NCBI RefSeq assembly: GCF_028583425.1
Contig: NC_072794.1
Location: 31,245,232-31,309,231, forward strand
DNA length: 64,000 nucleotides
Origin: Eublepharis macularius
Lineage: Eukaryota > Chordata > Lepidosauria > Squamata > Eublepharidae
Reading direction: 5' to 3'
Under the pieces are notes generated by a model, which was not told the origin of the DNA, made no database searches, and saw nothing but the letters and a program-made list of their open reading frames with translations. Each line of letters starts with the position of its first letter. The stretch's first letter is position 1. The translations under genes and the position numbers were made by a program. Below, piece after piece: positions 1-61,665 of this stretch.

Positions 1-1000
1 ATAATCTCTATACTCTCCCCAATATAAGTTAATCAATTTAACTTATATTTTATATATTCCTTTAAACATTGCTTATTCTCAATCTATTTTGAATATATGA
101 AATATCTGTTATACTAACAACATAACTACAATAAAAAAATACCTAGCTAGCATGCTCTTATATATTCATAATATATATTCATATTAACACATCTGTTATT
201 TAATACTATATATAATTTTTATCTTAACTCTAGTAATAGCTTAGAATTTAATAGTTAAATCCCCCTTTCCCGGTAAAGTCACTCTCTTCTTTTATTAAAT
301 TTCAATAATTCTCAAACTGCCACAGTTTTCCTTCCACATCCCATTTTTTCTCCAAATATTGCTTCAGTTTCTCCCAATCCATGTTAAACTGTCCTGGATC
401 AAGGTCTCTAAGTTTCCTTGTCATTTTGTCCATCTCAGCCATGTACAGCAATTTAGAAATCCAATCTTCAATATAAGAGTCTAGCCGCTGTTGTCATGTA
501 AAATAACAATGTTCTATGTTGTGCTGGAATATCTTCCATTCCCAAGTTCAGTAGCAGCAATTCTGGGTTTCTATTAACTTGAAATTGTAAAATCTCATTG
601 ATCATTTCTATTATTCCTCCCCAGTATTGCTTAGCTACCTCACAAGTCCACCACATATGATACAAAGATCCTTCATGTTTTTTACATTTCCAGCATTTCT
701 ACCTGAGTTCGATCCTGACGGAAGCTGGGTTCAGGTAGCTGGCTCAAGGTTGACTCAGCCTTCCATCCTTCCGAGGTCGGTAAAATGAGTACCCAGTTTT
801 CTGGGGGTAAAGTGTAGATGACTGGGGAAGGCAATGGCAAACCACCCTGTAAAAAGTCTGCCAAGAAAACATCATGATGCGACATCCCACCATGGGTCAG
901 TAATGACTCGGTGCTTGCACAGGGGACTACCTTTACCTTTACCCCCTCTGGACATTGTTTTAGATCTGTATTTCTGGTTAGCATCTTGGGTTGAAAACAG
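1..1000 (-). mobile_element. L1-type LINE, 3' end of ORF2 and tail (fragment)
   Basis: On the minus strand, 665-468 encodes YHMWWTCEVAKQYW followed by NPELLLLNLG, which matches the C-terminal part of vertebrate L1 ORF2 downstream of the reverse transcriptase. The frame continues weakly through 470-300 (KLLYMAEMDKMTRKLRDLD) and ends in an AT-rich tail toward position 1. Upstream sequence resumes near 945-1000 (NTDLKQCPEG) beyond an inserted SINE. The copy is 5'-truncated and broken by stops, so it is not mobile. The outer limit near 1000 is approximate. Confidence 0.75.
697..945 (+). mobile_element. SINE inserted in the L1 fragment
   Basis: The stretch reads as an abundant squamate SINE body, with the recognisable blocks GGCAATGGCAAACCACC (about 830) and GTGCTTGCACAGGGGACTAC (about 912). 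It separates two pieces of L1 coding sequence and so arrived after the L1. The head (CTGAGTTCGATCC) resembles a tRNA B box. No clear target duplication was found. The GGCAATGGCAAACCACC block also occurs in diverged form in the 5S-derived SINE at 36566, suggesting a shared LINE-recognised tail. Confidence 0.65.
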
Positions 1001-1760
1001 TCAAGGATGGTTGATCTCTTTGTTGTTCAAGAATTGTTGCTTTGTCACAAGTTAATTCTCTTCTTGAAAAGAGAGATTCCTGCCTTCTACCCTTACCCCC
1101 ATAAAAAGGCACATCAGATAATCAACCAGTATTTCCTGGGGAGAGGGGAGCTTCCTCCCACATCACATCACAAGAGAAAAAAGGTTTTCCACTTGTGTTT
1201 ATTACATGTTCACAGTAAAGGTCAAGTGACAGCATTCCATTTTAAACTAAGACAATCCCAGCAATGATGCCAAAGGCATCATCATCTTTACAATGTATAC
1301 AGTGAATAAGTCTGTACAGATCTGTTTGGCTTTAGTGACTCATTAAACAAGAACACCAGAGCAGAAAATATGGAGTGAATGCCTGAAATTCTACTGCCAC
1401 CCCCATCTTTTAAGTTATATCTATACCTCACTAGTTTGCAATGAATCAGACGATGGTTCCTGTTGGCACATGGCAATGACATAGTGTTGGCCTTGGTTCT
1501 GTGATCCCCAGGGTGATATCCTCTCATGTGTTTCCTTTCTTGGTGTCCACTTCCTTCTTCCGCAATATATCTCTTCCTCAAAGCAGAGGGCAAATACTGG
1601 TTTTCCTCCATCTAATTGGAGCACGTGCTTCAGAAGATCCCAGGAGGCCTCACCCTTGGGTCTGCCGTATACTTACCAGGTTGCCTGCTGTGGTGAGCAA
1701 TCTCCCACCCTCACTGCCCCACAGCTCTTGTGTTCACTCAATGGAGTGGCAGGAGCAAAA
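1001..1760. other. Unassigned intergenic DNA
   Basis: No convincing exon or complete repeat was recognised. Short open frames on both strands lack splice context or family resemblance. The last 100 bases resemble the start of a diverged short repeat also seen near 47.4 kb. Confidence 0.5.
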
Positions 1761-1852
1761 CTGGGGGAGGGACACAATGCAATGCCATGACATCACTTCC
1801 AGGTGAGTACCTGAAAGTGATGTCATGGCATTGCATTGCGTCCCTCCCCCAG
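1761..1852. repeat. Foldback repeat 1 (near-perfect hairpin)
   Basis: CTGGGGGAGGGAC at 1761 pairs with GTCCCTCCCCCAG ending at 1852, and the arms remain nearly complementary to the centre, including AATGCAATGCCATGACATCA. The loop carries CTTCCAGGTGAGTACCTG. Size and symmetry fit a MITE or foldback element. Confidence 0.75.
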
Positions 1853-1944
1853 ATTAGGGGAATTAAGAGAATATTTTGCGATGTCGCTTCCAGGTGAGTA
1901 CTTGGAAGTGACATCGCATGATATTCTATTAATTCCCCTAATCT
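1851..1944. repeat. Foldback repeat 2, abutting repeat 1
   Basis: AGATTAGGGGAATTAA at 1851 pairs with TTAATTCCCCTAATCT ending at 1944. The inner arms carry GCGATGTCGCTTCC and GGAAGTGACATCGC. The central loop CTTCCAGGTGAGTACTTGG is almost the same as in the preceding hairpin although the outer arms differ. Confidence 0.75.
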
Positions 1945-3892
1945 CTATAATATTTTACTCATTCAGAAGTAATGTCACAGCATCATTTCCCCAGTCTCCA
2001 TTCCCTAAATGCTCCTGCCCCTCTAACACTCCTGGTTGACTACCCTAGTCTGTAACAAATACTGCACCCATCATAGGAGGAGGCTTAGCTTGGAACCTCC
2101 TAACGTTTTGTGACTGCCCGTCTTGGCAGCCATTTTGTGATTTGTCCCACATCCCATGACAGTTCAACAAATATGGGGGGGGGCCTGATTTGAGGAGGTC
2201 TCAGTTCAGGGTGGTCCTATCTTTACTCACAGATAAGTGTCTGTTGGCAATACTAGGTTCCAGAACAGCCTCATTTTGCATACTGTAATAGATGCACCTG
2301 TTTAAGAGGCAGATATTAATGTGTGCCTCTATTAGATTTCAAATCTAAAGTGATAATTAGGCTAGAATGACCAAAGTCAGCCATTTCAATTACCGAGCTG
2401 CCCAGTAACCTCTCATTTTGGCAGATAACCAGTGATTGGTTTCAAAAGTCAGTTCACATATAACCAGCTTATAAAGTACTTTTTTGGCAATGATTCCTGT
2501 ATACAAGGAATATCCAAATTATTTGTGTGTAGTGCTGACTGCATTGTAGGTGCTTTTACAACTATTAAATGAAAATATCATCTGATTGCCAGGCTTTCTC
2601 CTGGCTCTACCCGTGAGGCTGATATTTTTTTAAGTCAAATGTTTTATATCTTTAAACAGCCCAATAAAGCAAGAAAAGCAAGGTTTTGTAATGATTACCT
2701 CCTTATTCTGTTTGTTTCAATTCTGAATTCATTCATTCAGAAGTCCATAAACCAGTCTTAAAATAGAGTTGCCTACAAGTGTGGGGGATTAGGGACACCC
2801 CATAAAAGGGATTATTCTCCCATTTGACTGCTGCTCGTATTGATGGCCTGTTCTGTTAACGTGGCATTTACGTAGTATGTAGGAATCGCCACTTGTAGGA
2901 ATGACACGTCACAGGGTTGCGATTCTGAGCATCAGTCTGCGAAGGCTAGTCTCTCCCAGCCAGGCAGTGTCTCCTTTATTTAAGCACAGCATGCATACAC
3001 AAGGACTGATGACCAAGGAAATAACGTTTATCTGTGCTGGCATCCAGTTAACCAGTTACTGACATGGACGGCTGAAACTGCACGTTGCATTGTTAAGCAT
3101 TTACGAGGAGAGGGGAGCAGAGTGCCCTTTCGATCAGGGTAGGCTTTCCTATCCGCTGACCTAAGGACCCACAGTAGTAGTCACCCTGATGTGTATTGAT
3201 CTTATGAAGGACACTGATTTAAAGAGGTGATTTGCTAGCCAGGGCTGGGGCACTTGGGTGAAACCCTAATTTAGTCACACCAGTGCTATGAGTGGCTTCT
3301 ATTTTATACCCATGTGCAGTTTATCTTGGAAAGGTAGTGGCTTTGAATGCTCTGGGGGGAAACAGCAATGCAGTCGGTGTGTCCCGAATACCCTTGCTGA
3401 AAGGTATTTGATTAGCAGCGGCCAAGAATCTGAGCTGCTGGTCCTCAAGATGAATATTGTTTCTGCCATGAACTCACTAAGAGAATTTGGCAAGCCACCA
3501 TCTTTCAGCTCAGCCCCCATCCCACCCCCATCTGCAGTATATGATAATAACAGTGACTCATCTTGCTGTAAGAATTACAAGAAAATCTATGCAAAGGGCT
3601 TCGAACACTGGGAAGTGCTATATGCAAATGCTAAATATTAATAATAAACCATGAAGAACGGTAGCCCAGACCAGAATCATTATTCTTATTTAGAACAATA
3701 TTAGTGTACATAAAACACCATAAATTAAATTAAGATGGGATTTGGAAACTGTCCTCTGTCTGCATAAACTAGGCAGCATAAGAGAGCTCCATGTTCCATA
3801 TAAGCATATGAGCTTTTGTGTTCAGGAGCAAAATGCATTCGAGTAGCAGATGCTACAAGCAAACAATGGAGGTGGGCAGTTTTCCTCAAGAC
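1945..3892. other. Unassigned intergenic or intronic DNA
   Basis: No exon with family resemblance and no intact repeat was recognised. A plus-strand open frame at 3288-3641 has no recognisable domain. The stretch is moderately AT-rich, in sharp contrast to the transposon that begins at 3896. It could be intron of the plus-strand gene whose last exon lies at 13016. Confidence 0.5.
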
Positions 3893-3895
3893 TTG

Positions 3896-3911
3896 GGCCG
3901 ATTCCAGATGG
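3896..3911 (+). repeat. Left terminal inverted repeat of the Harbinger element
   Basis: GGCCGATTCCAGATGG is preceded by the TTG duplication. It matches the reversed right end with one mismatch (T for C at position 14). Transposase and SANT proteins would be expected to act here and on the sequence just inside. Confidence 0.88.
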
Positions 3912-4013
3912 GCAAAATTAAAGCGAGTGATTTCGCTTTTCAAGCGGTAAGACCCGTTAAAACCCGCAAGTTGCCATCCCCGCTTACCTGCGGTCCATGG
4001 CGCTCCGTCGCGC

Positions 4014-4020
4014 TATATAA
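4014..4020 (+). promoter_or_regulatory. TATA-like box upstream of SANT gene A
   Basis: TATATAA lies about 120 bp inside the left TIR in a GC-rich setting (CGCGCTATATAAGCGGAC) and about 480 bp before the chosen start of gene A. It may drive a transcript with a long 5' leader. No start site can be read from sequence alone. Confidence 0.4.
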
Positions 4021-4146
4021 GCGGACAGTGGGAACACGGCATGGCGGGTTTTGCCGCAGCATGGCGATCCATCATGGGGGAAAAGGAACTCCCCTTTTCC
4101 GGGTGGCCGGCTGGCCGGCCACAATATCGCCATTTTTTTTAAAAAA

Positions 4147-4496
4147 AGCAGGAGCCATTTGCGCAATCGCGCATCTGCGGACATGAGTTTACACAAATGC
4201 GCAAAAGCATAATCATGATCAGTGTGTGTGGTTTTTCGATTCATTTTGCGCATCTGCGCAATTGCATTACTGCAACCCTCATGAAATGCGCACCTGAGCG
4301 TTCATTAACGTCCGGCATTTTGTCTGCCAGAGAATCTAACCCTGGGAAGTGTCGCTGACCTTTGCCCCGCAGACTTGCGTGCCGATTGGACGGGTGATCG
4401 GGCGGGTGGGGGGAATCTCGGTGGCTGAGAAACCACAGCACTCGAGCACAGTCACACACGCTTGTGCTAGAGCAATATCGCCTTGTCGGGAGCAGT
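4147..4496 (+). promoter_or_regulatory. 5' region of SANT gene A with TGCGCA motif cluster
   Basis: Several copies of TTTGCGCA, TGCGCAA or ATGCGCA lie between about 4157 and 4290, followed by a GC-rich leader up to the ATG at 4497. Similar clusters lie next to gene B (10340-10400, 10600) and gene C (about 12350 and 12560-12600), so the motif may be a binding site for an element-encoded protein. That role is inference. The block is duplicated at 5455-5830. Confidence 0.45.
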
Positions 4497-7363
4497 ATGG
4501 CCGGTGGAGGGGATGTGGCTGGGAAGCGGGGGGTGTCCTGGCGGCATAGAGAGATTGTGGATCTGCTACACTTCTGGGGGGAGGAGAAGATACAGGAAGC
4601 TCTCCGAAGCACCCACAGGAACATGGACTACTTCCAAAAAATCTCGAGGCAGATGGCAGAGCGGGGCCACAAGCGGTCGGCTACAGAGTGCCGCACCAAG
4701 ACCAAAACCATGCGGCTGGAGTACAAAAAGGTTATGGCCCACAACGGCCGTTCAGGGAACGCGCCAACAACCTGTCCGTACTTCAGAGAGCTGGACAGCA
4801 TTTTGAGGGGGGATGCAAGCGTTAACCCCAAGAGGCTGGCTCGGAGTATAGTGCTGGAGGTGGAGGGCAGGGCCCGGGAAGGCCCTCTGGAGCTTCAGGA
4901 GGGCTCGGAGGAGCTCTTCAGCCATGACCTCGTCACCATCAATGCGGAAGATCTCAGGACATCGACCCCCTTTCCATCAGGTAGGTGGGGGCCCGGGTCC
5001 AAGTGCGGTTGCTGCCGGGGTGGTGCTTCGGGGGTGTAATCAAAGCATGCAATATGACGAGGCTGGCCCTACTTCTGTTCCCAGGGCACGGTGGCTTCGT
5101 GGACGATGACCACTTGCACAGCGGTGGAGATCCTGATGCGACCCTGAGTGGACTGGCGGGAACGGGTACGTGGGGGGAACAGGCGAGGGGGGCGCGGGAA
5201 TCGCTTGGGCTAGTCTGGGAATCCGCCGCAATAATGGTCCGTGCTTTCCCGGGCACGGGGGCGGGGGGGGTGCGCCAGCAGCTCTGCTGGGTCGAGTTAT
5301 GCACCCTGGGATTCTGTGGGGCGTGGGTGCTCTGTTTATTGGCTCAGGGCACAGGCCGGTCAGTCCCTTGCTGGGGGTCCGGGGCGGGGCCCGGGAAGTC
5401 CGCCGGTCAGGCACACAGCCCTTGGATTCTCTGAGGCCACAATGTAGCCTAAAAGAAGGCGCCATTTGCGCAACCGCGCCAATGCACAAATGCACAAATG
5501 CACACAGATGCATAATCAGCCTCAAGGCATGCAGCAGTGTCCGGCCCCATGTTCCGCATTTGCGCAATTGCATTGGTGCTACCCTCCTGAACTGAATACT
5601 TGAGGCCTTATTATCAACCGCCATTTTGTCTCCCAGAGAATCCAACCCCGGGAGGTGTCGCTGACCTTTGCCCCGCAGACTGGTGTCCCGATTGGACAGG
5701 CGTTTGGGGGGGGGAACTCGTCGGCCAAGACACCACAGCACGCAGGCACAGTCACACACGCTTGTGCTCGTGCTGCTGCCGGCTTGTCGGGAGACCATTG
5801 CAGGGGGTCCTGGGGCGGGGGGATGGCACCCAAAACCCCGCTGGGATGGCAAAAACAGTTTGAAGTTTCTGGGGCCGTGGCGCACTGAGAGTCGGCTCTA
5901 AGCGCAGGACAGGCAGTACATGGCCAATAAAAGCGGCTGCAATCCCTGGAGCGATGATGGTGGCTTGTTTGGCTTGTTCTGGCTTGCTCCCAGGGAGTAC
6001 TTTGAAAGTCCACATTGTGCAGGAGACCACCGGTGTTGGTTTTCGATTGCCTGAGTTGTGGCAAGGTCAGGTGCACCAGGGCTGAGGAGAGGCAAGGGGG
6101 TGTCGGGGGGACAGCCATGCAGTGTCATGCAAAGCTGCCTCCATGTTGTGGATGTGCCAAATTAATGCTTGGGATACTGATTCTTCTCAACACGTCCAAG
6201 AGTAGCCCATCCAGCACAGGATAGTGTGGCCACCGGAGCAATACCTCAATCTGTGGCCCACAATAGATAATGGCATGAGATTTGCTAATGCGTCGGCCTA
6301 ATGGCCAAACACTTTCCAGTTCACCCCCCCCCAAGTGGCTGTCTATCTGAGCGTGCTCCATCCTCGGGGCTGATCATTGATTTCTGCAAATGGAACGGCA
6401 AGAAAGAGCACTGTGGTGCTCTTTCGAGGCATGCACTTGGGATGCGTCTCCCGCTGTGGGCCTGAATTGCGGCATCAGCTTGCTTGGGGCTCTGAGGGAA
6501 CGGTGGCAGCTGCACTTCTTCTTCCAAAGCGATGGTGTTTTTCATCAGGCACCCACCCACATGTTGGCGGGAAGCATTCGGTGCAGCCATGCCCTCTGCC
6601 GGTAACCCAAAGTGCATTCTGACAATGTTGCCTTTTTCGCAGATGAGCACGAGTTCGCCTCGGGAAGCAGCACGGAGGACAATCTGGATAAGGAGAACAG
6701 CCCGCCCTCGCCAGGCGTCGTCGTCTCAGGTACCGCACACTTGCAATGCCGCACGCCTGGGAAATTCGGGGTCCGAGGGCTTGATGGGGGGAACGTGGCC
6801 GGGGAATGGTGGGGCCTTGTGTTCACCTCTTGGCTGTTTCTCCACCCCCCCCCCCAGGCAGCCCTCTGCCAAATCCGGCCCAGCTGTCCCCTGGGACACG
6901 ACTTTCAGCAATAAGGAACCGCAAGCGGAGGGCCCATGGTGGCACTGAGGCTGCGGACAGGATGATGAGCCAGGCAGACACTCAGCACCGCGAGGATATC
7001 GCCGAGCGGCAGAGGCAGCATTCCGAGGCACAGAGGTGGCGCCAAGAGTTCATGGAGGTGACCCGTCAGGAGCAGGCGATGTTTCAGAATGCTTGGGGCC
7101 AGAACCTGGAGGTGATGCGTGCCACCGTCAGCACGCTGCAAACACTTGGACAGGCCATGCTCCGGATGCAGCAACCGCTAGCAGCAGCTCCAGAGCGGCC
7201 ACCCCTGGTGGTTGAATCCAATGCCCCCACAGCTCCAGCGCTGAATGAGGGGGAGGTGGATGAGGGGGCGATCATCCGGCAACCTTCCCCCCATCCTCAG
7301 CCAAGGCAGGGTGTCCCCAAGCGGTCCTGTGTGGGCAGGTCCAGGGATCGGCTAACCCTGTAG
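4497..7363 (+). CDS. Harbinger SANT/trihelix-domain protein A (spliced, 4 exons)
   Basis: Exons are 4497-4980, 5085-5165, 6643-6729 and 6858-7363, all joined in phase 1 with GT-AG borders, giving about 385 residues without an internal stop. Residues about 13-98 form a SANT/Myb-like trihelix domain: an early Trp (VSWRHREIVDLLHFWGEE), the signature GHKRSATECRTKTKTMRLEY, and CPYFRELDSIL. A Ser/Pro and acidic linker follows (EDNLDKENSPPSPG), then a basic patch (IRNRKRRAHG) and a long Gln/Glu-rich helix (HREDIAERQRQHSEAQRWRQ) likely to form a coiled coil. Such proteins bind Harbinger ends and help bring the transposase to the nucleus and DNA. An in-frame ATG at 4464 is possible, but 4497 has the better context and lies next to the domain. 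Intron 2 is 1.5 kb and holds a duplicated promoter block. Confidence 0.82.
5166..6642 (+). other. Intron 2 of SANT gene A
   Basis: This 1,477-bp intron is far larger than the other introns of gene A. Its middle (5455-5830) is a diverged direct duplicate of the gene's own 5' region. The remainder (about 5890-6640) holds no recognised domain. It may descend from a second, decayed 5' end of a related element. Confidence 0.6.
5455..5830 (+). repeat. Direct duplicate of the gene A promoter/leader (about 4147-4520)
   Basis: Shared blocks in the same order include CATTTGCGCAA, TTGCGCAATTGCATT, CATTTTGTCT, CCAGAGAATC, GTGTCGCTGACCTTTGCCCC, CAGTCACACACGCTTGTGCT and CTTGTCGGGAG. The duplicate lacks the start ATG of the first copy and differs at many positions, so it is older than a recent tandem copy or came from a relative. 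Confidence 0.8.
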
Positions 7364-7572
7364 ACGAGTCTTGCCTTTTTCCTCAGCTCTGCCCAACCTT
7401 CCCCCAGCCCCCCCCCCCCCACGGACAGAAGACCGCAAAACCCCACCACCCCAGACACACCACCACCTATCGAGAAAACACGGACAATCAAACCGTTGTT
7501 TTCAACTTTAACTTTTACTGAACAGGAACAAACTCAACCTTAACAGATACCCCCCGCCCTCCCAAAGTCCCA

Positions 7573-10330
7573 TCATTGCTCGGTGGCCGCTGGCATTAGT
7601 GCAGACAGTTGTCCCTCCAAGGCCCGCACACGTCTCTCGAGTGCCCGGTGTTTCCGTCCCTGGTAGAGCAGGAGGCGCTCGACGGTGTCCATCCTGCCCT
7701 GCAGCGTGTTCACTGTGGACAAAACAAAGATATGCATCAGTTCAAATCTCACTCCCTTATCTGCATGGGACTCTCGCACGTGCCCCTCTCTGCCCCTCAC
7801 GTCTGGAACTCCCTGCCGTTCCCCTCACAGCCCCTCATGTGTTGGCCTCCCTCCCATGCTCCCCACTGCCCCTGATGCCTGGAACTCCCGGCCATTCTCC
7901 CTTGCTGTCCTTTGTTCCCGCCACACTCCATCGCTGCCTGTTATGCCTGGGACTCTCCCGCATCCCCCCCACATCCCCATCATGCCTAGAATTCCTTGCC
8001 CCTCTCTTCATAGGTGAAGGCCTCCCATCCAAGGAGGGGGGTTATTTAAATTGAAATGGGAGCCGGGGAAAACCTAAGAATGCAAACAAGCTAGGCACAT
8101 GGACAGATGCAGCCACATGTGTCTAATTTGTTCTCCAGTGGTTAATAAAGCCACACACTGTCAGGGAGCGGTCTGTCCCTTGCCAACACAAGTGGAGTTG
8201 GCAGATGCCGGGAGGAACCTGCCAGCCTGTGGCCGCTCCTTTAACACCACCGGGGTTTGGAGAGAGCTGCGTGCGGAATTCTCTGTCGCTCGGTGGTAGA
8301 GGTGAGGACTGCCTCAGTGTGAGCTCAGGCCTCCCCGAAAGGCAGTCATGGACTCACTCATGGGAGAGCATCATCCGCCCCTCCAGGCCCTTGATGGCTT
8401 CAAGGATGCTGCTGTTCCCCTCTTGGGAAGCCGGTGTACGGGCCGCCGCTCGGCTCGTCGTGGGCTCCTCCATGGTGGCGGGAGTCCCCTCGCCAGGGGC
8501 CGACACTGTGGATAGCGAGAAGATGGTAACAGCTGTTAATCCAGCATTGGGGGCGGGCCTCTGTACTCAAGTGATCTTTCGTTTAAATAAATAGATTTGA
8601 AACATATGTTGTTGTTAACAGTACATAAAAACAGTTGGTTCACAACAGCTGCGCACAAATGCGCACAATGCACATTACGGCCATTTGTGGTGCTGCGCAG
8701 GTGGCTGGAGGGTGCGCCGGGAGCTGCTCTTACCCAGTTCTTCTGTCGGCCGCCTCGCGGAGGAAGGTGGTTGCCCGCTCTGCCCGGCAACGACCGAGCC
8801 CCTGGCCGCCCCCTCCATTGCTTCCTCAGGAACACCACGGCCTTCGTGCCCCCGTGCATCTGCAATCAAGATGGGAAAGGAGGCGTTGTGAGGGTGAGAA
8901 CGTGGGCCCCAACCCCCACACCACACACGCTTTCCTCTCCTTTCCCCCCATTCAACCCCCACCACCCCATCTTGGCGCACGTTTTGCCGCAGCACTGTGC
9001 CGTGCCGCGGGACAGCTGCGGCGATGTCGGCACGACCGCTCACCGCTCACCTGCAGGTCCCTCCAACTCCACCTCCACCAGCCACTCCTCTCCCTGTGGA
9101 GGTGGCGCCTCCCATTCCTGTTCCTCCTCCACATGACCCACGAGCTCCTCGCCTGCTGGTGGCTCGGCTGGCGGAATCCCTTGCTCCCCCTGCCCTGCTG
9201 CAAGAGATTGGGGCGTGATGGATCAGTGAACGGGCCAGAGACCCCACCCCCCTCAACCTTGCAGCACTCACTGCCATCATCTGTGCAGCACCTCTCACCT
9301 CCATGCGCCTCCTCCATAGTTTCCGCCTCTTCCTCACGGATCCTGGGCCCACGCTCACCAGCCTCCTCCTCCTCAGCCTCTCCCGCCTCCTCCTCCTCCG
9401 CCTCTGCCACCTCCTCGGGTTGCCCTCGCCCTCATCGCAGCTGCAAGAGATTGGGGCGGGTTGTTGGTATCTCTGGTGCCCAGCTGGCATGCAATGGCAC
9501 AATGGTCTTCCGCACCTCAAGGCACCCTGTCGCTGTGGCAGACGCGGGAGGGGGGGGGTTGTGACCTTGTCTTCAGACTGCAGTTGTGTGCATGTTTGCT
9601 GAAGTCTTACTGAGTTCAATGGGTCCTAATTCCAAGTATGTGTGCACAGTATTGCAGGTGCAATCCTAAAAACGCTTACTAGAGATAAGAACTACTTGAC
9701 CCAGGGGCAGCTATTTCTTAAAAAAACATTCTTTGGAGCACTCTTCACAGGGCCGCTTTGGCAGACAGGGGGGGGGAGGGGTTGTGACTATGTCTGCGTG
9801 CCACCTGGAAGTCTGCGTGCCACCTGGGCATCATTGGCCTCTCTGGAATGGCCACCGGGGATTGATGGCAGTGCTGGGGGCCTCAACAGAGCACCACTGA
9901 TACCCTAATATGTGGCAGGGCAAAGAACGCCAACGGGAGGGCAAGACTGCAACCAGGCCGAGATCAATTCACCCCCCCCCTTCCACCTACCTGCCTGCCT
10001 CCGGTCCTCCCAGCTAGGCCTGCCAGCCGCCTCCCAGAGCCGTCGCATCTCCACAAAGAACGGCGGCCTGGCGCTCATTCTTGGGATGCCCTGCCACTGC
10101 TCCAGGGCTGCGAAGAAGTCGGCCTTGATGCGCTTGAACTTGGAACGGCACTGGTCCGCGGTCCTGGGCCAACCCTTCGCACCCAGCTGTCGGGCAACCC
10201 TGGAGAAAATGGCCTTCGTGGGCAGGTGGTGGCTGCCCATGATGCGGCTGGCACGCCCACTCTGCAGAAGGAGGTCAAGCAGGGCCTCGACCTCCAGATC
10301 CCGCCAGTAGCGGCCCTTACTGGCAGCCAT
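7573..10330 (-). CDS. Harbinger SANT/trihelix-domain protein B (spliced, about 6 exons)
   Basis: Exon 1 (10330-9991) starts MAASKGRYWRDLEVEALLDL and holds a SANT/trihelix domain through about residue 95, with GWPRTADQCRSKFKRIKADF and a Trp after the last helix (MRRLWEAAGR). Likely further exons are 9430-9299 (Glu-rich), 9197-9051 (acidic, EEQEWEAPPPQGEEWLVEV), 8859-8734 (RGHEGRGVPEEAMEGAARG), 8505-8358 and 7712-7573. The last encodes a leucine-zipper-like tail (DTVERLLLYQGRKHRALERR) ending at a TGA. Exons 1-5 join in consistent phase 1; the final join does not keep the tail frame, so either one exon is missed or a small mutation lies there. Sequence differs strongly from protein A, but the domain plan is the same. 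Its 3' end faces that of gene A about 210 bp away. A weak AGTAAA polyA signal lies at 7519-7514. Confidence 0.75.
7788..8010. repeat. Degenerate minisatellite in the last intron of gene B
   Basis: About six units of roughly 37-40 bp follow one another on the theme TGCCCCTCATGCCTGGAACT followed by a C-rich run. The units are well diverged. The array lies wholly between the last two proposed exons of gene B. Confidence 0.55.
9598..9690. repeat. Short interspersed-repeat fragment in gene B intron 1
   Basis: GAGTTCAATGGGTCCTAATT and TGCAGGTGCAATCCTAAAAA resemble a common reptile repeat whose hallmark is GTGCAATCCTA next to a CAATGGG block. It would have arrived in the transposon after the transposon was built. 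Confidence 0.4.
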
Positions 10331-10930
10331 TTTTTTAGCTGCGAGTGTAAGGATATGCGCTAACGCGCGAAAGCGCGACTGCGCATGCGCAACTTTAGAA
10401 GCGGCAATCCGTGCAGGTACCCATTGCTCCGCTTAGCCGGGCAGCTGCTGCCGGCCGGCCCCCCAGCATTCCCCTCCACCGAGGTCCGCGGCAGCGCCCC
10501 CCCCATAGTGCAGCAGCGTACAGTATTTTTTGTCAATGTTATCTCGATCACTCCCTCACTCCCCGAGAACGTTCACCCAAGGGTTGCCAGTATGAGTGTA
10601 TCGCCGCATTTGCGCATTTCCGCAAAGCGGAACACGCAAGCGACTCAGAGAAGGGGGTAACCGATACGGCTTTGCCACTTTCTGTAGTCACCGGCTTAGA
10701 TCTGCTGGTGACCCGCATAAAGCACCCCCCAACACTACCCCCAAAGGAGGAGCGGTCATGGCGGGGGCCACCAGAAAACGTGTGGTGGCACGGAGCGCGC
10801 ATTCGCCTGCTATTGCGCAGTAGCAGAGGGATGCAACTTAGTGCGCAAAGGCGGCAATACCAAAACCTGCCGGGTCTGCATTCCCCCCGCACCCAGGAAC
10901 GGACAAGGAAATCGAAAAATGTTCGACTGC
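10331..10930 (-). promoter_or_regulatory. Upstream region of SANT gene B
   Basis: Between the start of gene B and the 3' end of the transposase lie 600 bp of GC-rich DNA with palindromic GCGC-type motifs close to the start (GCGCTAACGCGCGAAAGCGC, then TGCGCATGCGCAA) and again near 10600. The promoter function is inferred from position. Confidence 0.4.
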
Positions 10931-10941
10931 AATAACAACCA

Positions 10942-10947
10942 TTTATT
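10942..10947 (-). terminator. PolyA signal of the transposase gene
   Basis: AATAAA on the minus strand lies about 78 bp beyond the transposase stop codon. Confidence 0.65.
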
Positions 10948-11024
10948 GGCAGGACAAACTTTTCCTTGCAATATTGGCACTTTTGGGATATGAGTTTTCC
11001 CTCCCCCCAAAGAAAGCCAGGGCA

Positions 11025-12452
11025 TCACCGTCCGCATCTGGAATACATGAATTCAGCCATCGCGTCACGAACCCTCTTCCCCTCATCAAGCATCCCCCTG
11101 TCGTTCTCCCCATACTCCAGTCCATCCCCGGGCATTGTCAAGGGCGTGGGATCCGTCAGTGACCCAAGCACTGCATGTCCCTTGGCCTCGCACAAGTTGT
11201 GCAGGATCACACACGCGGTAACAATGGTCACCACGTTCTCCTCTCTGGCCTTCAGCCGATGGAGGAGGCACTGCCAGCGTCCCTTCAGACGACCAAAACT
11301 GCATTCCACCTGGTTCCTGGCCCGTGCCAGGCAGCGGTCGAAGTATTTCTGTTGTGGTGTGACAGCAAATTTTCCGTACGGCTTCATCAGCCACCGGCGC
11401 ATTGGATAAGCACCATCCGAGATCATCAGCGGTGGCACTGAAACACCATTCACTGTCAGGGAAGGATTCCCAGGCACAAAAGCCCCATTGTCCATTGCAG
11501 CACAGAGAGCCGAGTTGCGGAAGACGAAGGCGTCGTGGTTCTTGCCACTCTAACCCACCTCTGCATCAACAAAACGGCCGGTGTGATCGACTGTACCCTG
11601 CAGCAAGATGGAGGAGTAGTTCTTTCGGTTACCGTATTGGTCCGGCTTCCCACGGATGTGAGTGCCATCAATCGCCCCAACACAATGAGGGAACCCCAGC
11701 GCTGTAAACCCATCCATTATCTGAAACAGAGACCAGAAACACGCATGATTGGAAATGCGCAGTAGCGCACCATCGGGGACACGGAAAACAACACAAACCA
11801 CCTTTGTTCCAGCCTGCGCAAACCGCCTGCCCCTCCTGCAGCCATCACTCACCTTCCCGACCTCGTCCCTGAGGCACACTGTCTTCGAGAGTAGCTGCTT
11901 CTCAATTGCGAAGCAGACCTCCAGCACAGCATCCGAAACGGTGGACAGCCCCAGACCGAAGTGATCCGCTGCAACGCGGTAGCATGCCCCAGTGGCAAGG
12001 CACCACAACGTCACCGCCACCCTCTTCTCCACGGACACGGGCTCATGCATGTTGGTGGACTGGCGTGCCAGGGTCGGCCTCAGGGCATCCACCAGCTCAT
12101 TGAAGGTCCCCCTGCTCATCCGGAAACACTGAATCCAATGTGTGTCGTCCCATACACGCAGGGCTATGCGCTCCCACCAGTCCTGGCTCCGGGGGTATAC
12201 CCAGCAGTCTCTGTGCTCTCTGGTGTCCGCCAGCACATACCATCGCTGCCGCAGACGGATCCCTCGCAAAGTTGACCTACGTGAAGCTGCACCCAATCTT
12301 TCGCTGTGGAAAATCAGCTGGGCAGCCCTTCTCCGCCTCAAAATGTGCCGCAGATGCGCATGGCAAAGTGAGACCGTGTTCTGCAGCAGGAGAATCACCA
12401 CCTGCGCCATCACGAGTAAAAGCTCTCTCCCGGGCGCCATTTCAGGGTCCAA
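11025..12452 (-). CDS. Harbinger DDE transposase (one nonsense codon)
   Basis: Exon 1 is 12452-11853 and exon 2 is 11720-11025; the 132-bp intron has donor GGTGAGT and acceptor TTTCAG and keeps frame if read through. The product is about 431 residues. Exon 1 ends with a helix-turn-helix-like region (FGLGLSTVSDAVLEVCFAIE) typical of PIF/Harbinger transposases. Exon 2 carries the DDE nuclease (DDE_Tnp_4 type): first Asp in CVGAIDGTHIRG, second in MISDGAYPMRRW, and Glu in NQVECSFGRLKGRWQ. A TAG at 11552-11550 replaces the Trp expected in VG-W-SGKNHDAF, between the first and second catalytic residues. The frame is otherwise open, so the lesion looks recent and this copy is probably non-autonomous. 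A polyA signal follows at 10947-10942. Confidence 0.9.
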
Positions 12453-12833
12453 CAGTCAGCACGTACCAGATTAGCAATTGAGAATCTAGAGTGGAACCAT
12501 CGACCAATGTACTTCGCGAGAATCTCCCGGACCAATCATTGACCGCATCGTCGATGCCGCGGCTTCGCGCATGTGCGCGTTTGCGCGTTTGCGCAAAACG
12601 GGGGGAAAGAAATAAAAAAAAAAAACCTCAAGATGCGAACAAATGAAGGCCCCCCACGTCAGTTGTGCCAGGGAGGAGAGAACCAATCCCGGGGTCCCTG
12701 TCTTGGCCATGCGAACATGCGGAGGCGGAACGGCACGGCACAGAACGGATGAAGACGAGACAAAGCGGATGGAGGCGAAAATACCCGCGTGGCCGGTAAG
12801 CGATTAATAGCGCGGGCAAAACGCTATTTCTGG
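12453..12833 (-). promoter_or_regulatory. Upstream region of the transposase gene
   Basis: This stretch between the transposase start and the right TIR holds two CCAAT motifs (plus strand, near 12505 and 12531) and a run of GCGCATGTGCGCGTTTGCGC followed by another GTTTGCGC unit (about 12567-12597). It is the likely promoter and subterminal binding region. Confidence 0.4.
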
Positions 12834-12849
12834 CCGTCTGGAATCGGCC
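12834..12849 (-). repeat. Right terminal inverted repeat of the Harbinger element
   Basis: CCGTCTGGAATCGGCC is followed by TTG. Read on the minus strand it begins GGCCGATTCCAGACGG, the same start as the MITE ends at 38098-38225. Confidence 0.88.
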
Positions 12850-13015
12850 TTGCTTGGGGGCTTTCTGAAAACATCAGGTTACCCACTGCTGGAAACACAA
12901 TGCTGGTTTAGGTTGCTTCTACGTGGTTTGGAGGGCATTTCCCTTTTCTCTTCCTGTAAGAAAAATGGATGGCCTTTATGATTCTGGTTTCACTGTTTGG
13001 GGTTTGTTTTCCCAG

Positions 13016-13145
13016 GTTGAGCTGTGGTCAAGACAAGAGACTGGCCCTGAAGAATGAACGTAGCTGCCTTGCTGACCTTACAGATGAAGATGGTTTAGCT
13101 CCATTTGACACAGCAACATTCAAGCTTTCAGATTACAGAGAATAG
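13016..13145 (+). CDS. Terminal coding exon of an unidentified host gene
   Basis: A strong acceptor (GTTTGTTTTCCCAG) precedes the exon. With the first G completing a split codon, the frame reads LSCGQDKRLALKNERSCLAD, then LTDEDGLAPFDTATFKLSDY and RE before TAG at 13143-13145. An AATAAA at 13210 and a GT-rich stretch after it complete a credible 3' end. No family was recognised from 42 residues. In mammals RGSL1 lies on the strand opposite RGS8 nearby, so RGSL1 is a candidate by position only. No upstream exons were identified; if they lie left of 3896, the Harbinger element sits in the last intron. Confidence 0.55.
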
Positions 13146-13209
13146 AATCCTGGATTCTGCTTGGCTAAAGATTCTTTGTTATTTCCCTACATTTCATGGC
13201 CTTGGGCCC

Positions 13210-13215
13210 AATAAA
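13210..13215 (+). terminator. PolyA signal of the 13016 exon
   Basis: AATAAA lies 65 bp after the stop codon, with a GT-rich element (ATGGTGGATTTTTGGTTAGG) about 20 bp downstream. Confidence 0.6.
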
Positions 13216-13230
13216 AGTCATCTTTACAGA

Positions 13231-13851
13231 AGATGGTGGATTTTTGGTTAGGCTATTTTTTATTATTACTCTTTCCCCTCCATTTTTGTGTGCAAAAATG
13301 ATGTTATGGGCTTGGATCCTCCTGATTACTGTGGATTAGTCTATCATATAGGACATAGGGAATGGTAATGTGTCTTGAGAAGTGTAGCTACCTCCTCAAT
13401 GGGCTTTAAATGCCAGGAAATGACTGATCAAAAGTCCACTGGGGCTTGGAGGATGTGACCCCCCCCGTGCTAGATGAAGGGGGTGAGGTGTGTGTGTGCT
13501 GTGAAGAGGGAGCAGGTTAGATTCCAGAAGAGACAGAAAAGCACAGAAAAGCACAAAAGGTTCTCTCTCTGGAGATCTGATGTGGGGTGGCCAAACTGCT
13601 GCCTTGTAGGAGTGCCTCTATGTCTCCAGCTATACATTTGCAAATAAATATTACAAATATACCATAATGCTTTCTTTTCCAAAAAGAACCAACTCGGTAC
13701 CCTTGGGACTTCTTATAACTAAAGAGTACTCAAGAGAATTCAAGAGTAGTGGGGTGCATGTAGTTTCCAGTGATAGCCAGCGTGGTATACTATACTATAT
13801 AACATGGTATATAGTGTACCATATTATGTATGGAATACTAGTATACTAGTC
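13231..13851. other. Unassigned DNA ending in an AT-rich palindromic tract
   Basis: Nothing coding was recognised. From about 13785 to 13851 the sequence is rich in TATAC and AGTATACTAGT palindromes, which resume after the repeat at 13852-14022. Confidence 0.5.
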
Positions 13852-14022
13852 AGATGCATGGTACAGAAACTGGTTCTGTACCATGTTTCTGTACCATGCA
13901 TCTGACGAAGAGAACTTGATTCTCGAAAGCTTATGCTACAATAAAATTGGTTAGTCTTAAAGGTGCTACTGGACTCTTTTTGATTTTGCTACCACAAACT
14001 AACACGGCTAACTCCTCTGCAT
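13852..14022 (+). mobile_element. SINE-like repeat F3 (GCATAAGCTT family)
   Basis: The core includes CTTATGCTACAATAAAATTG, TTAGTCTTAAAGGTGCTACT and AACACGGCTAACTCCTCT, a repeat I know as common in reptiles. The host tract TAGTATACTAGT stands on both sides, which looks like a 12-bp target duplication and so retroposition. Its 5' end folds back on itself (CAGATGCATGGTACAGAAAC against GTTTCTGTACCATGCATCTG). Confidence 0.6.
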
Positions 14023-14071
14023 CTATAGTATACTAGTATACCCTATATACTATACAATATGGACTTTCCAG

Positions 14072-14345
14072 TGATAGCCAGCATGGTAAACTAGTTAGAG
14101 CATCAGACTAGGATCTGCAAGGCCCAGGTTCAAATCCCTGCTTGCAATGCGAAACTTGCTGGGAGAGTACAGTTGCGTTGGAATGTAGACTGGGTGAGTA
14201 CAGCTTTGGAATGTAGATTCTTTGTAGACTCTATGGCAGAATGAAAACTCTATGGCAGTAGATCCTGCTGATTTCCCTTTCCTCCCCAGACCCTGACCTC
14301 CCCAGGCTCCGCCCCGAAAATTTCCAGGAAGGTCCCAACCTGGAG
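14072..14345 (+). mobile_element. tRNA-derived SINE head joined to an S1 repeat fragment
   Basis: GATAGCCAGCATGGTAAACT, GTTAGAGCATCAGACTAGGA and GGTTCAAATCCCTGC form a tRNA-like head with A and B boxes. The SINE body is replaced after about 14170. From about 14255 the end of another repeat (GACCTCCCCAGGCTCC, CCCAACCTGGAGTG) follows. Confidence 0.6.
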
Positions 14346-14370
14346 TGAATTTCACCCTCCAAGTTCCCCT

Positions 14371-14529
<159 letters not shown>

Positions 14530-14671
14530 GCTGTCACTTTACAAAAACACACCTCACACGCTCCAGCTGAGTTTTATTGCCCCTAGTCTTTAGTTAGTAT
14601 AACAGCAGTGTAGAAAAGCTGGTGGAAAATGTAGAACAAATACCATTCCTAGGGCTAATGTCCTGGCTACA

Positions 14672-14714
14672 GATATATACATCTTTTTTCCCCCAGTGCA
14701 AAGCTTAGAAAAGG
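14672..14714 (+). repeat. Direct repeat, left copy (partner at 15571-15617)
   Basis: CCCCCAGTGCAAAGCTTAGA preceded by a TATATACATCTTTTT stretch recurs about 900 bp downstream, nearly unchanged. The spacer holds two SINEs. Confidence 0.7.
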
Positions 14715-14874
14715 AAAAGTAGTCATAACCTAAACAGAGTAACTAATTTAATAGCAGAGCAAAGTCAAAAGCTGCCATCTCTCCTTACTGCTTTCTCCAG
14801 GCAAACATGGCATGAATGATAGAGGACCTACAGCACCATCCTAAGTGGAGTTATACCCTTCTAATTCCATTGAA

Positions 14875-15075
14875 CACATGAAGCTGCCTTATCCTGAATC
14901 AGACCTTTGGTCCACCAAAGTCAGTATTGTTTACTCAGACTGGCAGCAGCTCTCCGAGGTCTCAGGCAGAGGTCTTTTGCATCACCTACCACCTGATCTT
15001 TTAACTGGAGATGCTGGTGATTGAACCTGGGATCTTCTGCACGCCAAACAGATGCTCTACCACTGAGCCACAGCC
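14875..15075 (-). mobile_element. tRNA-derived SINE (second family)
   Basis: Read on the minus strand the head is GGCTGTGGCTCAGTGGTAGA with the B box AGGTTCAATCACC, and the body includes GACTTTGGTGGACCAAAGGT. The other end carries GAAGCTGCCTTATCCTGAAT. Related head-only fragments lie at 24355-24447 and 25075-25150. Confidence 0.7.
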
Positions 15076-15115
15076 CACAATGGGATGAGAAGTGTGTAAC
15101 ACTGCTTAGGATGTA

Positions 15116-15331
15116 GGGTTGCCAGGTCCAGGTTGGGAAATTCCAGAAGATTTTGTGGGCAGAGCCTGGAGAGGGTGGGGTTTGGGGACGGTAGGGGCCT
15201 CGGTAGGGTATAATTCCATAGAGTTTGCCTGTTAGATCAGCCATTTTCTCCAGGGGAACTGGTCTCTGTTGCCTGGAGGTCAGTTGTAATTCCAGGAGAT
15301 CTCCAGCTACCACCTGGAGGCTGGCAACCCT
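15116..15331 (-). mobile_element. Interspersed repeat S1 (CTCCAGGTGG family)
   Basis: The copy starts GGGTTGCCAGGTCCAGGTTG and ends CACCTGGAGGCTGGCAACCC. It contains AGCCATTTTCTCCAGGGGAA and GGTCAGTTGTAATTCCAGGA. Further copies in this window lie at 19045, 21713, 53274, 60026, 60984 and 61986. Confidence 0.75.
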
Positions 15332-15521
15332 ATTCGGATGCCACTGTTGGACACAACAGCTCAAGGCTGTTGCATGAATGAGCAATGCACATGGGACGAA
15401 CAACGCACTTTCTCCAGAAATCCTTCTTTATAATTACATTTACCAATACTTGCCAAAAGGATGCAAAAGTACTATGGGGCACTGCTGTTCTTTACCATGT
15501 GGCTTTGTGATGTCAAGCAAT

Positions 15522-15588
15522 CTGCGTATATATATATATGCAGATACACACACACACACACATATATATAGATATATATACACACATC
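15522..15588. repeat. TA/CA microsatellite
   Basis: Alternating runs of TA and CA dinucleotides. Confidence 0.9.
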
Positions 15589-15617
15589 TTTTTCCCCCAG
15601 TGCAAAGCTTAGAAAAG
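15571..15617 (+). repeat. Direct repeat, right copy (partner at 14672-14714)
   Basis: Same core CCCCCAGTGCAAAGCTTAGA following TATATACACACATCTTTTT. Confidence 0.7.
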
Positions 15618-16567
15618 CATCAAGTAATATGCAAATAATGAAAGTTGGAGATATATTGGTTAGAAAATCAAGACTAATCTACACATGCGGGGAAATCAAG
15701 TGACTCCGACTTCCTACAGCTATATTGCTCCAGACTGCAGGTGCAGGATTTCATGTTTGAATGCTTTCTCCATGTAAAATATTTCCTGCAGACAGAAAGC
15801 CGGTATGTCTGAGGCAAGGATTCAAAGCTAGCCTTCTCCTTGACATGGAATTTTTCTATACACAGGATGTTCTTTAAAGAGGGATTCATTCAACCATGTG
15901 ACCCTCTACCTATAGTCTAAATTGGTACAAGATGTATCATGGCATTTCTCTGCATGTGTAGATCAACTCAGTGATTTAGGGACATAGAAGACCTTTTCCA
16001 TGTCCTGTCTTAAACTATCTTCAGTTTAAATTAATCCAGAGAACTGATGTTGTTGAAATAATGCACAATTCCTGCATGTTTTTGGGGGGAATACTTTCTA
16101 GAACTTCTGCAAATGATATGCCTGGGACAAATATCTTGGCTTCAGTTCATGGTAGCTGTCTTAAATTAGCCCAAGAAATCCAGCATTTACACTGGCTATT
16201 GAGTACATAGTTCTCCAAAATACTATTTTAAAAGTTTAACCTGCTTTGTATGACTAGTATATGCCTGCCAAGCTTTTTTGAAAGAGAGCGGGGCCATTGG
16301 AAGGCAGGGCTTGTTACTGGCTTTCCTCTTTCAAATGAAAGGGTTTTCCACTGGAGGGTGAGGAGGACAGATAAGCATCTGGGCTTTTCTTAGTCAGTGT
16401 GTGATTTCATTCCCCCTTCAGAATTTCCTTCTTCCTAGGAGGAGGGAGGTGGAAGGTAGTCCATTTGGCCTTGCCTCTGGAGGCAGCCATTTTGGATTTG
16501 GTTCAACCTCATGTGGAAGCCCTTTTGAGTGGTGCTCACCACCACGTCAAAATTCCTAAGGTGCCTG
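15618..16567. other. Unassigned DNA
   Basis: No exon, RNA gene or complete repeat was recognised. Confidence 0.45.
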
Positions 16568-17298
16568 TGTTAGCAGTCAGACCCCTCCTCTCGCTGAGGG
16601 GCATTTTATAGATACAATACTATAAACACCCTTCCTCAAATTTCCTAAGCACAAGTCACTGCCTGGCCTGAAACAAAACAAATGCCAGCCAGGTAAGAAC
16701 CAGGGAAAATATTTTACAAGGGGAGTCTTGGCTGACTGCCTAAAAGACCCCCTCCATACTTCAGAGAGATGCATAATTTAGAACAATTGGTCTCCCAAGA
16801 ACCTCTTGACTAATCTCATCCATGCCTAGCCTCACTTCCCCTCACCCATTTACCTTAATTAAGCAACACCAAACGCTATTCACCAAACCTGGTATCTTTT
16901 CCCATCCGGTACTCACAGGGTCATCAAGCACCATTTACACCCATTATCCACCTCCAGAGAACCCATCAAGTTATTGTTTTTGGAGCAAAAAAATCAGCTT
17001 GCCCCAGGGAGCATTTTGCCCTGTATCTAGAATCCCTAGCCACCAGCCTTCTCCTCTCTGTGAAACATTGGTCATTTTGCTGCTGCATCTGGGGACCTCC
17101 ATCTTCAGGACTGGTACTTATAGCCTTCCCTAAAACTGCGTTCTCCCCTTTCCTGATTTCCTTTCAGTTAGCCTTGTATATGTTCTGGGTGTGATTGTAT
17201 GTTTTCCCTTTTATTTCTCTTTTAATAAAAACCTTTCCAGTTGAACAACTGGCTGATTTATTTCAAGAGTTCTCTTACGAGAACAATCCCTGTAAACA
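16568..17298 (+). mobile_element. Possible LTR fossil (about 730 bp)
   Basis: The segment begins TGTTAGCAG and ends TGTAAACA, as LTRs begin with TG and end with CA. It has an AATAAA at 17224 and a weak TATA-like site before it, and the base order after the end (TTGGTGGAG) could be a primer-binding site. No internal retroviral coding region is present, and no flanking duplication was confirmed. Family and age cannot be set; a solo or truncated LTR is one reading and unrelated DNA is the other. Confidence 0.3.
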
Positions 17299-24126: not shown

Positions 24127-25841
24127 CTTGTCTCCTATTAGGCTATACATCTACACTACAAATTTACATGACTTCTATAGTCATTTAACTGTCACAGTTT
24201 ACCCTGATCACTCCTAAGAAATTGTAGTTTGACAAGAGTTGCACAGCTGTTAAACCAGATGATGCCTGTACTGAGGACACACCCTGAGAATCACCAAGTA
24301 GACCCACTTACTTGACACATGCAAGGCCCGCCTTCTCTACTCTGGCTGGCAGTGACCTGGTCCCTTTTAAACTGGAGATGCCAGGGATTGAACCTACGAC
24401 CTCCTGCATACAAAGCAGATACTCTGCCAGTGAGCCACAGCCTCTCTTTTAAGAACCCCTGCAGCGTGACGCAGCTACAGCTTCTCTTCTGCCAGTCTCT
24501 TCACCCGCCCTCCCTTCCGGTTCGCTGCAGGACCAAATGAGAGCCCAACTGGCTACATCAGGCTCAAAGGGGAGAGGAAAGGATAGTGGAGAAGCAGGAC
24601 GGCAGGAACAGCAGCCGCATCTTCCTTCATGGCTGCAGAGTTACTAAAGAGAGAGCACCCAGCTTCCCAAATCTCACTTCTTCTAAACTAAGACAAACAT
24701 GCTCAGATGAAAGGTCTGTTCTGTATTATCCTTGCCAGTCAGCCATGAATATAATGGATGTGACCCCAAGTTGACAGGCGATTCCCAAAGAGACCTGTTA
24801 GCAACAAGTAGCCAACTCCCCAGTTTTGCTACCTCTAACCCTGCCCCATCTTCTTGCACGTAGCTTCTCAGACTCTGCCATGTATTGAAACAACTGTCTA
24901 TCTTTTCAGATGCTTGGGAGCTTGGACACTTGCTATAGTTATTCCATAACAGAAATGGCCAAATAAACCAAGAGCAGGAGGGAGCCCACATTCTGTTTGA
25001 AGGAGCTTTACGGTTGGCACTCCCACTATTTTGCAACTTCACACATAGCCGGAGGAAAGCTCCTCACCTGCTACTGGATCCTTTTACCTGGGGATTTCAC
25101 CTGGGACCTCCCTCATGCACAACTGATGCTCTACCACTGAGCCATGGCCCCGAACGAATGGAAACACGGCAGTATTATTATTCGCTGGCTCCCGCGTGGC
25201 ACTGGCTCCACCTCTTAACTGGCAGGGCTACAGATGGTGCCAGGTCAGGCTTGCAACATGCAGTATTCAGCTTTGTCCTGCACTCTGCCTTCCTGCATCG
25301 GCCACTTCCCTTCTTCCTGCTCCCCCTCAGCTTTGACTCTGATTGAAAGAGTCTCTCTTGGCCTGTCCTTTCTGCCTGGTGCCTTAAACCTCTGGCCAGT
25401 GGTCTTGGGCTCTCTGGCCGCACAAAGCCCTGATCCTGCAGTTACTCACTCTGGATTGGCTTTGGCTGCCCAGCGCAAAGAATTATTTACAGACAAGCCT
25501 GGTGTAGTAACACTTCAGGAAGCCCACAGTGAAGTGAATTCAGCATAAAACATAGACCAGACTTTATGCTCCCGAGGAAGAGCATCAACTACAATGGGTC
25601 TTATGTATGCAGGTATGCCTTAAATACACAGGTATGCTAATGCACAAACCGGAACCCAAAGCTGGCACAGGATTCTTGCTGCAATGTGTTTTCTACACAT
25701 ACCCTTCTTCCCCCCCACCTCTTCGCCTTCCCTTTTGCGTTCTTCTGCTGTGACAACACCAATGAAATTTCACAGATGGGAATGAATTTGGCTGGTGCAG
25801 GAAGCTCACGGTGTCTAAAGAGGGATCTGCCCCTCCCTGCC
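24127..25841 (-). other. Downstream flank and probable 3' UTR of RGS8, with SINE heads
   Basis: Directly left of the RGS8 stop codon the minus-strand transcript would run into this DNA. No polyA signal could be assigned with confidence. tRNA-SINE head fragments (minus orientation) lie at about 24355-24447 and 25075-25150. Confidence 0.45.
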
Positions 25842-60983: not shown

Positions 60984-61665
60984 AGGACTGCCAGTTCTAG
61001 GTTGAGAAATCCCTGGAGATGTGGGAATGGAACTTGGGGAGGTCAGGGACTCATGGAGGTCAGGGGACTCATGGAACTTGGGAAGGTCAGGGACTCGTGG
61101 AGGTCAGGGGACTCATAGAACTTGGGGAGGTCAGGGACTCATGGAGGTCAAGGGACTCATGGAACTTGGGGAGGTCAGGGACTCATGGAGGTCAGGGGAC
61201 TCATGGAACTTGGGAAGGTCAGGGACTCGTGGAGGTCAGGGGACTCATGGAACTTGGGGAGGTCAGGGACTCATGGAGGTCAGGGGACACATGGAACTTG
61301 GGGAGGTCAGGGACTCATGGAGGTCAGGGGACTCATGGAACTTGGGGAGGTCAGGCACTCATGTAAGAAGCAATACTATTTTAGTTCAGAAATATTATTA
61401 ATTAACCATATCATGCTAATGGGCATGGAGCCCAGGCCAACCAACCATAGACTCTTTGGCCCCTGTTAAGTGTACCTATTACTCATTACTTACTTGAGTA
61501 CTACCCGTAGTCCTAGGTAGGAACTTGGGGAGGTCAGGGACCTCAATGGGATATAATGCCTCCAAAGCAGCCATGTTCTAAGGGGAATCTGATCTTTGTA
61601 ATCTAGAGAGCAACTGTAATTCCAAAAGATCTCAGACCCCACCTGGAGGATGGCAACCCTAGATG
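60984..61665 (-). mobile_element. Repeat S1 carrying an internal minisatellite and an insertion
   Basis: The left part (GACTGCCAGTTCTAGGTTGA) and the right part (CAAAGCAGCCATGTTCTAAG, CACCTGGAGGATGGCAACCC) are one S1 copy. A GGGGAGGTCAGGGAC segment within it has been multiplied at 61030-61365. About 140 bp of other DNA (61366-61510) follows before S1 resumes. Confidence 0.75.
61030..61365 (+). repeat. 44-bp minisatellite, about 7.7 units
   Basis: The unit is GGAACTTGGGGAGGTCAGGG followed by ACTCATGGAGGTCAGGGGAC and TCAT. Units differ by one or two bases. Because 44 is not a multiple of three and no frame of the unit has a stop, all three plus-strand frames are open across it. Confidence 0.95.

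Follow-up and report, generated by a model that had tools for sequence, protein, structure and literature searches.

Can a single DNA element of the Harbinger kind carry two different SANT genes next to its transposase? This question is raised by a GC-rich segment of 8,954 bp (positions 3896-12849) within a 64-kb stretch of the Eublepharis macularius genome (64,000 nucleotides of contig NC_072794.1, hereafter the window). The segment is bounded by inverted repeats and a TTG target-site duplication and encloses three gene models, namely two genes with a SANT domain, here called A and B (the model of B being incomplete), and a gene for a DDE transposase. We consider it rather probable that the segment is one copy of an element of the PIF/Harbinger-ISL2EU-Spy (PHIS) superfamily, which was inserted with its three genes as a unit and is now inactive. 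The first-pass annotation of this locus had reported matched terminal inverted repeats, a TTG duplication, a DDE transposase and two separate SANT genes within 8,954 bp, and both the coordinates and the Pfam matches bear this out.

Ends and composition of the element

The element starts with GGCCGATTCCAGA and its far end is the reverse complement of these 13 bases, both ends beginning with GGCC. The inverted repeats are perfect over these 13 bp and agree at 16/18 positions overall, which makes the 16 bp given in the first-pass annotation slightly generous. Between these ends the base composition departs from that of the surroundings, with a GC content by kilobase of 0.55-0.61 over 4001-13000 vs 0.36-0.44 in 1-3000 and 13001-17000. 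Likewise, the CpG ratio ranges from 0.31 to 1.28 across the element parts tested, all of them above the left (0.24) and right (0.16) flanks. GCGCA-rich subterminal stretches that match each other, a match made without a chance control, lie at similar distances from the two ends (262 bp on the left, 252 bp on the right).

We found a second element with almost the same ends in the window. It is a palindromic element of 128 bp (38098-38225) with a CTG duplication on either side, each end of which agrees with the right end of the large element at 17/18 positions and with its left end at 15/18. When the 13-base end was searched with up to two mismatches, the four matches in the window were precisely the two ends of each element, while shuffled sequences gave a mean of 1.2 matches and at least four in 4/100 cases. 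The near-identical ends and the CTG duplication of the 128-bp element provide independent support for the ends of the large one. As judged from the sequence, they suggest that the ends shared by both elements are mobile, and the 128-bp element is probably non-autonomous, moved by a transposase of the kind encoded in the large one.

Three genes between one pair of ends

The positions of all features of the element are collected in Table 1. Gene A is intact: its four exons on the + strand encode 385 amino acids without an internal stop, its GT-AG introns are all in phase 1, and its frame stays open in none of 1000 resamplings. The product carries a basic cluster (RKRR) at residue 239. The upstream region of the gene recurs within intron 2, and we did not observe any recognisable SANT exon after this second copy.

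Like both SANT domains (Table 1), the DDE_Tnp_4 match of the transposase lies above the Pfam cut-off (E 5.7e-26, covering positions 2-158 of 158). Its exon 1 gave no more than a sub-threshold helix-turn-helix match to HTH_23 (E 0.014, 15.7 bits vs a cut-off of 24.6). Since its second exon is interrupted by an in-frame stop, a full transposase would not be expected from this copy.

Gene B could be followed with less certainty. The open frame of its SANT exon is not significant when taken alone, as 112/1000 resamplings were also open, and the basic-cluster pattern was searched in this exon and not found. Furthermore, the modelled junction into the last exon enters another open frame and not the leucine-rich one. 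Gene B appears to be damaged after its first exon, or to be spliced otherwise than we modelled. The acceptor regions of the proposed exons 2 and 3 have a 35-nt repeat in common (9186-9220 and 9429-9463, 80% identical), which suggests an old exon duplication of the acidic segments. Within intron 1, the sequence at 9600-9700 resembles a common reptile interspersed repeat and could be a later insertion; a self-search of the window revealed no other copy of it. Some 50 bp ahead of the start of gene B, TGCGCATGCGCA at 10380-10391 fits the NRF1 site, and a host factor might drive the element from there. Considering these models together, the description "nearly whole" in the first-pass annotation holds for gene A, and falls short for the transposase, with its stop codon, and for gene B, apparently damaged past exon 1 or mis-modelled.

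The two SANT domains are 22% identical over 95 residues (E 4e-8 in a single comparison), and their local alignment score of 82 stands against 25.8 +/- 4.5, with a maximum of 50, in 2000 shuffles. On the other hand, the C-terminal part of gene A did not align with the 45-residue peptide of the gene B last exon (622/1000 shuffles reached the score). We infer that the SANT domains of A and B are distant homologues that parted long ago; in view of the 22% identity, we reject a recent duplication of gene A as the source of gene B.

Table 1. Features of the element, from left to right. Positions are those of the window.
Feature	Position	Strand	Remarks
Target-site duplication, left copy	3893-3895		TTG
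Left terminal inverted repeat	3896-3913	+	
Gene A, upstream region / 5' leader	4144-4492	+	CpG-rich
Gene A, exon 1	4497-4980	+	SANT/trihelix domain; Myb_DNA-bind_4, E 4.1e-19 (Pfam)
Gene A, exon 2	5085-5165	+	
Second copy of gene A upstream region	5451-5793	+	About 74-75% identical; within gene A intron 2
Gene A, exon 3	6643-6729	+	
Gene A, exon 4	6858-7363	+	RKRR cluster; C-terminal part helical-looking by eye; stop codon
Gene B, last exon (approximate)	7573-7712	-	One frame leucine-rich by eye; stop here
Gene B, exon 5 (approximate)	8358-8505	-	
Gene B, exon 4 (proposed)	8734-8859	-	
Gene B, exon 3 (proposed)	9051-9197	-	Acidic
Gene B, exon 2 (proposed)	9272-9440	-	Acidic in one frame; frame fitting exon 1 closed by stops
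Gene B, exon 1 (SANT exon)	9991-10330	-	Myb_DNA-bind_4, E 8e-11 (Pfam)
Region upstream of gene B / downstream of transposase	10331-11024	-	CpG-rich; AATAAA on - strand at 10947
Transposase, exon 2	11025-11720	-	Bulk of DDE domain; in-frame TAG at 11550-11552
Transposase, exon 1	11853-12440	-	
Subterminal GCGCA-rich repeat	12564-12597		Part 12570-12597 82% complementary to 4158-4185 near left end
Right terminal inverted repeat	12832-12849	-	
Target-site duplication, right copy	12850-12852		TTG

One element or several

For the palindrome TGCGCA we counted 19 sites in the element, where 3.3 would be expected and the largest count in 300 resamplings was 11; the remaining window has a single one. 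Five sites lie in the left end together with the upstream region of gene A (3896-4496) and five upstream of gene B, counts that none of 1000 resamplings reached in either case. Two more are found in the duplicate of this gene A region within intron 2 (35/1000 resamplings), three each in the bodies of gene B and of the transposase (24/1000 and 27/1000, respectively), and none in three other parts of the element. The single site beyond the element, at 41593, falls within a GC-rich stretch (41001-44000, GC 0.52-0.58) in which the longest stop-to-stop frame seen has 145 codons.

These sites bear on the origin of gene A. With the transposase carrying a stop and gene B apparently damaged, it is the only intact gene of the three, as one might expect from a host SANT gene that the element picked up or that was kept after the insertion. 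It is located between the element ends, however, and the TGCGCA repeats upstream of it are shared with the upstream region of gene B; moreover, chance may leave one of several genes intact in a single old copy. We therefore regard a captured or co-opted host gene as highly improbable.

When all pairs of inverted repeats with a 3-bp duplication were scored within the element, the outer pair came first (15), a value equalled by the best of 100 first-order resamplings; the ends and the TTG are therefore only moderately significant when taken alone. Several observations weigh against the three genes having been inserted together. An internal pair from the same search, at 6414-9896 with CTG duplications, scored 13, which places it in the upper tail of the maxima from the resamplings (15 at most); arms of this length were found in 8/100 of them. 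Furthermore, gene A has two copies of its upstream region, implying that the left part of the element has been rearranged, and this part could have come in by recombination. Upstream of the transposase we counted one TGCGCA site, which is not significant (175/1000 resamplings). Only one copy of the three-gene element was seen, the 64-kb window being the DNA examined, so that we infer the joint movement of the genes. Finally, exon 1 of the transposase has a basic cluster of its own (RRRR at residue 35), and the cluster of gene A consequently does not single this gene out for nuclear import.

The internal pair would be of interest if gene A or gene B had arrived with a separate transposon nested inside the element. 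Such an event could account for the 8,954 bp, about twice the mean length of the autonomous candidates of the related groups NuwaI (4,462 bp) and NuwaII (4,685 bp), as given in the excerpted text of PMC4482050. The 6414-9896 pair encloses neither gene A nor gene B as a whole, though, and because it cuts through both SANT genes we read it as chance; with a score within the resampled maxima, we rejected it as a nested element. A further internal pair, at 5422-5645 with CCC, scored 12, and none of the internal pairs with a duplication went beyond the range of 100 resamplings. Allowing 5 mismatches in 18 bases, or 2 in 13, we also did not find any further copy of the end sequence inside the element. 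Both of these searches would miss an old nested insertion whose short ends are eroded or unrelated. Altogether, a nested insertion seems to us quite improbable.

A one-off chimera is less improbable. In this case, an ordinary two-gene element made of gene B and the transposase would have acquired by recombination the left part of a relative that bore gene A and compatible ends, and the possession of three genes would not be a family trait. Gene A indeed lies wholly on the left side, in the orientation opposite to that of the other two genes; its duplicated upstream region attests to a rearrangement on this side, and the 22% identity of A and B is what two lineages would be expected to show. 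Against it stand the outer ends and the duplication, which match each other, and the TGCGCA enrichment common to the upstream regions of A and B, even though both would also be compatible with a chimera of related elements. We think this explanation unlikely, and favour the insertion of the three genes as a unit.

Searching the window for other fragments of gene A (whole), gene B exon 1 and the transposase (in pieces) yielded none that was convincing; of the weak extra matches, one falls within the transposase gene but on its opposite strand (E 0.002), and those elsewhere had E values of 0.38 and 0.70. With a 174-aa part of transposase exon 2 as query, there were no relatives among the 32 candidate stretches of the genome_contigs collection. 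In viral_contigs, one of four candidate stretches, on a phage-like contig (L001), was rejected as a match of 14 residues. The exact 18-base end was present in five contigs of viral_contigs, which is near chance by a rough estimate. Few relatives would be expected in either collection, since they consist of viruses and prokaryotes.

Elsewhere in the window, tRNA-family matches lie on the - strand at 15006-15077 and 24373-24444, in stretches about 80% alike, and are possibly tRNA-derived short interspersed elements. Two long near-perfect palindromes lie at 34678-34880 (94%) and 35314-35485 (98%), and a portion of the latter is repeated at 13895-14027 (91%); both palindromes are probably further short elements with inverted repeats. 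Tandem arrays occupy 27814-28301 (100-bp units) and 61027-61363 (44-bp units).

Known relatives and the roles of two SANT proteins

The element fits membership of the PHIS superfamily (statements on published systems follow excerpts of the cited papers). It has a DDE transposase of the Harbinger kind, as indicated by DDE_Tnp_4, and terminal inverted repeats with a TTG duplication, within the range of 0-, 2- or 3-bp duplications of this superfamily (PMC12730594). The label "Harbinger" in the first-pass annotation is thus appropriate at the level of the superfamily. The duplication does not agree with that of the PIF/Harbinger group, which is TWA (PMC4482050), whereas we observe TTG in the large element and CTG in the 128-bp one. 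Of the helix-turn-helix motif ascribed to transposases of this group, the sub-threshold HTH_23 match is what we observed. The Myb/SANT protein that forms the second gene of this group is present here twice.

Compared by their descriptions in PMC4482050, NuwaI is the nearest group, although the agreement is partial. It has in common with our element a 3-bp duplication, a SANT protein and a DDE transposase without another strong domain. Its duplication, CWG, fits the CTG of the 128-bp element but not the TTG of the large one, and its ends are usually, if not universally, GGG, whereas here they start with GGC. Moreover, our element has two SANT genes and is far longer than the NuwaI mean (about 4,462 bp), and the excerpt lists no reptile among the NuwaI species. 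NuwaII shares with it the ends starting with GG, a SANT protein and a DDE transposase, and one turtle is among its species. It differs in its single SANT gene and in its duplication, most likely TNA in the target C|TNA|G, which neither TTG nor CTG fits. Most autonomous candidates of both groups have two open reading frames, one of which encodes a SANT protein (PMC4482050).

Functional evidence comes from Harbinger3_DR of zebrafish (PMC9710019) and Harbinger-Snek of sea kraits (PMC8437027), in which a transposase and a SANT/Myb-like partner are likewise found and are both required for movement. These systems have one SANT gene vs two here, and the duplication of their group is TWA (PMC4482050) vs TTG. 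The cited literature is in agreement with the first-pass annotation, according to which a transposase and a single SANT/Myb protein are the typical equipment of Harbinger elements.

Genes beyond the usual set have been described in the TET/JBP Harbinger families of rust fungi and in HarbingerS with its SET gene (PMC12730594). What was added there codes for enzymes or for proteins lacking a Myb/SANT domain, and the excerpt of that paper does not describe a second SANT gene. Two SANT genes in one element were not reported in any of the papers listed or excerpted in our search, which was confined to the open-licence literature and so did not extend to subscription journals or Repbase Reports. In melon, the SANT1 protein of one element shows paired binding peaks at the elements, with one motif containing the end sequence (PMC11161486); we rejected this paper as a precedent, as it concerns two binding peaks of one protein.

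By analogy with relatives that have one SANT gene, the transposase would have cut at the terminal repeats, and a SANT protein may have recruited it by binding repeats close to these ends. The Myb-like protein of Harbinger3_DR recognises a subterminal motif of 9 bp and also interacts with the transposase, and this interaction is required for the nuclear entry of both (PMC9710019). Gene B would be the likelier ordinary partner of the transposase, because it is adjacent to it and on the same strand. Gene A, because of its opposite strand, its own CpG-rich upstream region and its own basic cluster, would be the likelier addition, serving either as another partner or to regulate the genes of the element. 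We put forward, as a tentative and rather doubtful proposal, that a Harbinger/Nuwa-type family exists whose two diverged SANT proteins have separate tasks: one would guide the transposase to the ends, while the other would recognise the upstream TGCGCA sites and control the genes, so that the element would regulate itself. The first-pass annotation held that a second SANT gene would define an element type; from the one copy observed, a lasting family with three genes is so far no more than plausible.

According to the excerpt of PMC9710019, all known plant and animal PIF elements have two genes. The requirement for a separate SANT partner is an unusual trait of the superfamily, and two diverged SANT genes in one element would permit a direct test of what this partner does in end recognition, nuclear import and regulation. 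Likewise, such an element might bear on the repeated takeover by hosts of SANT genes from elements of this kind.
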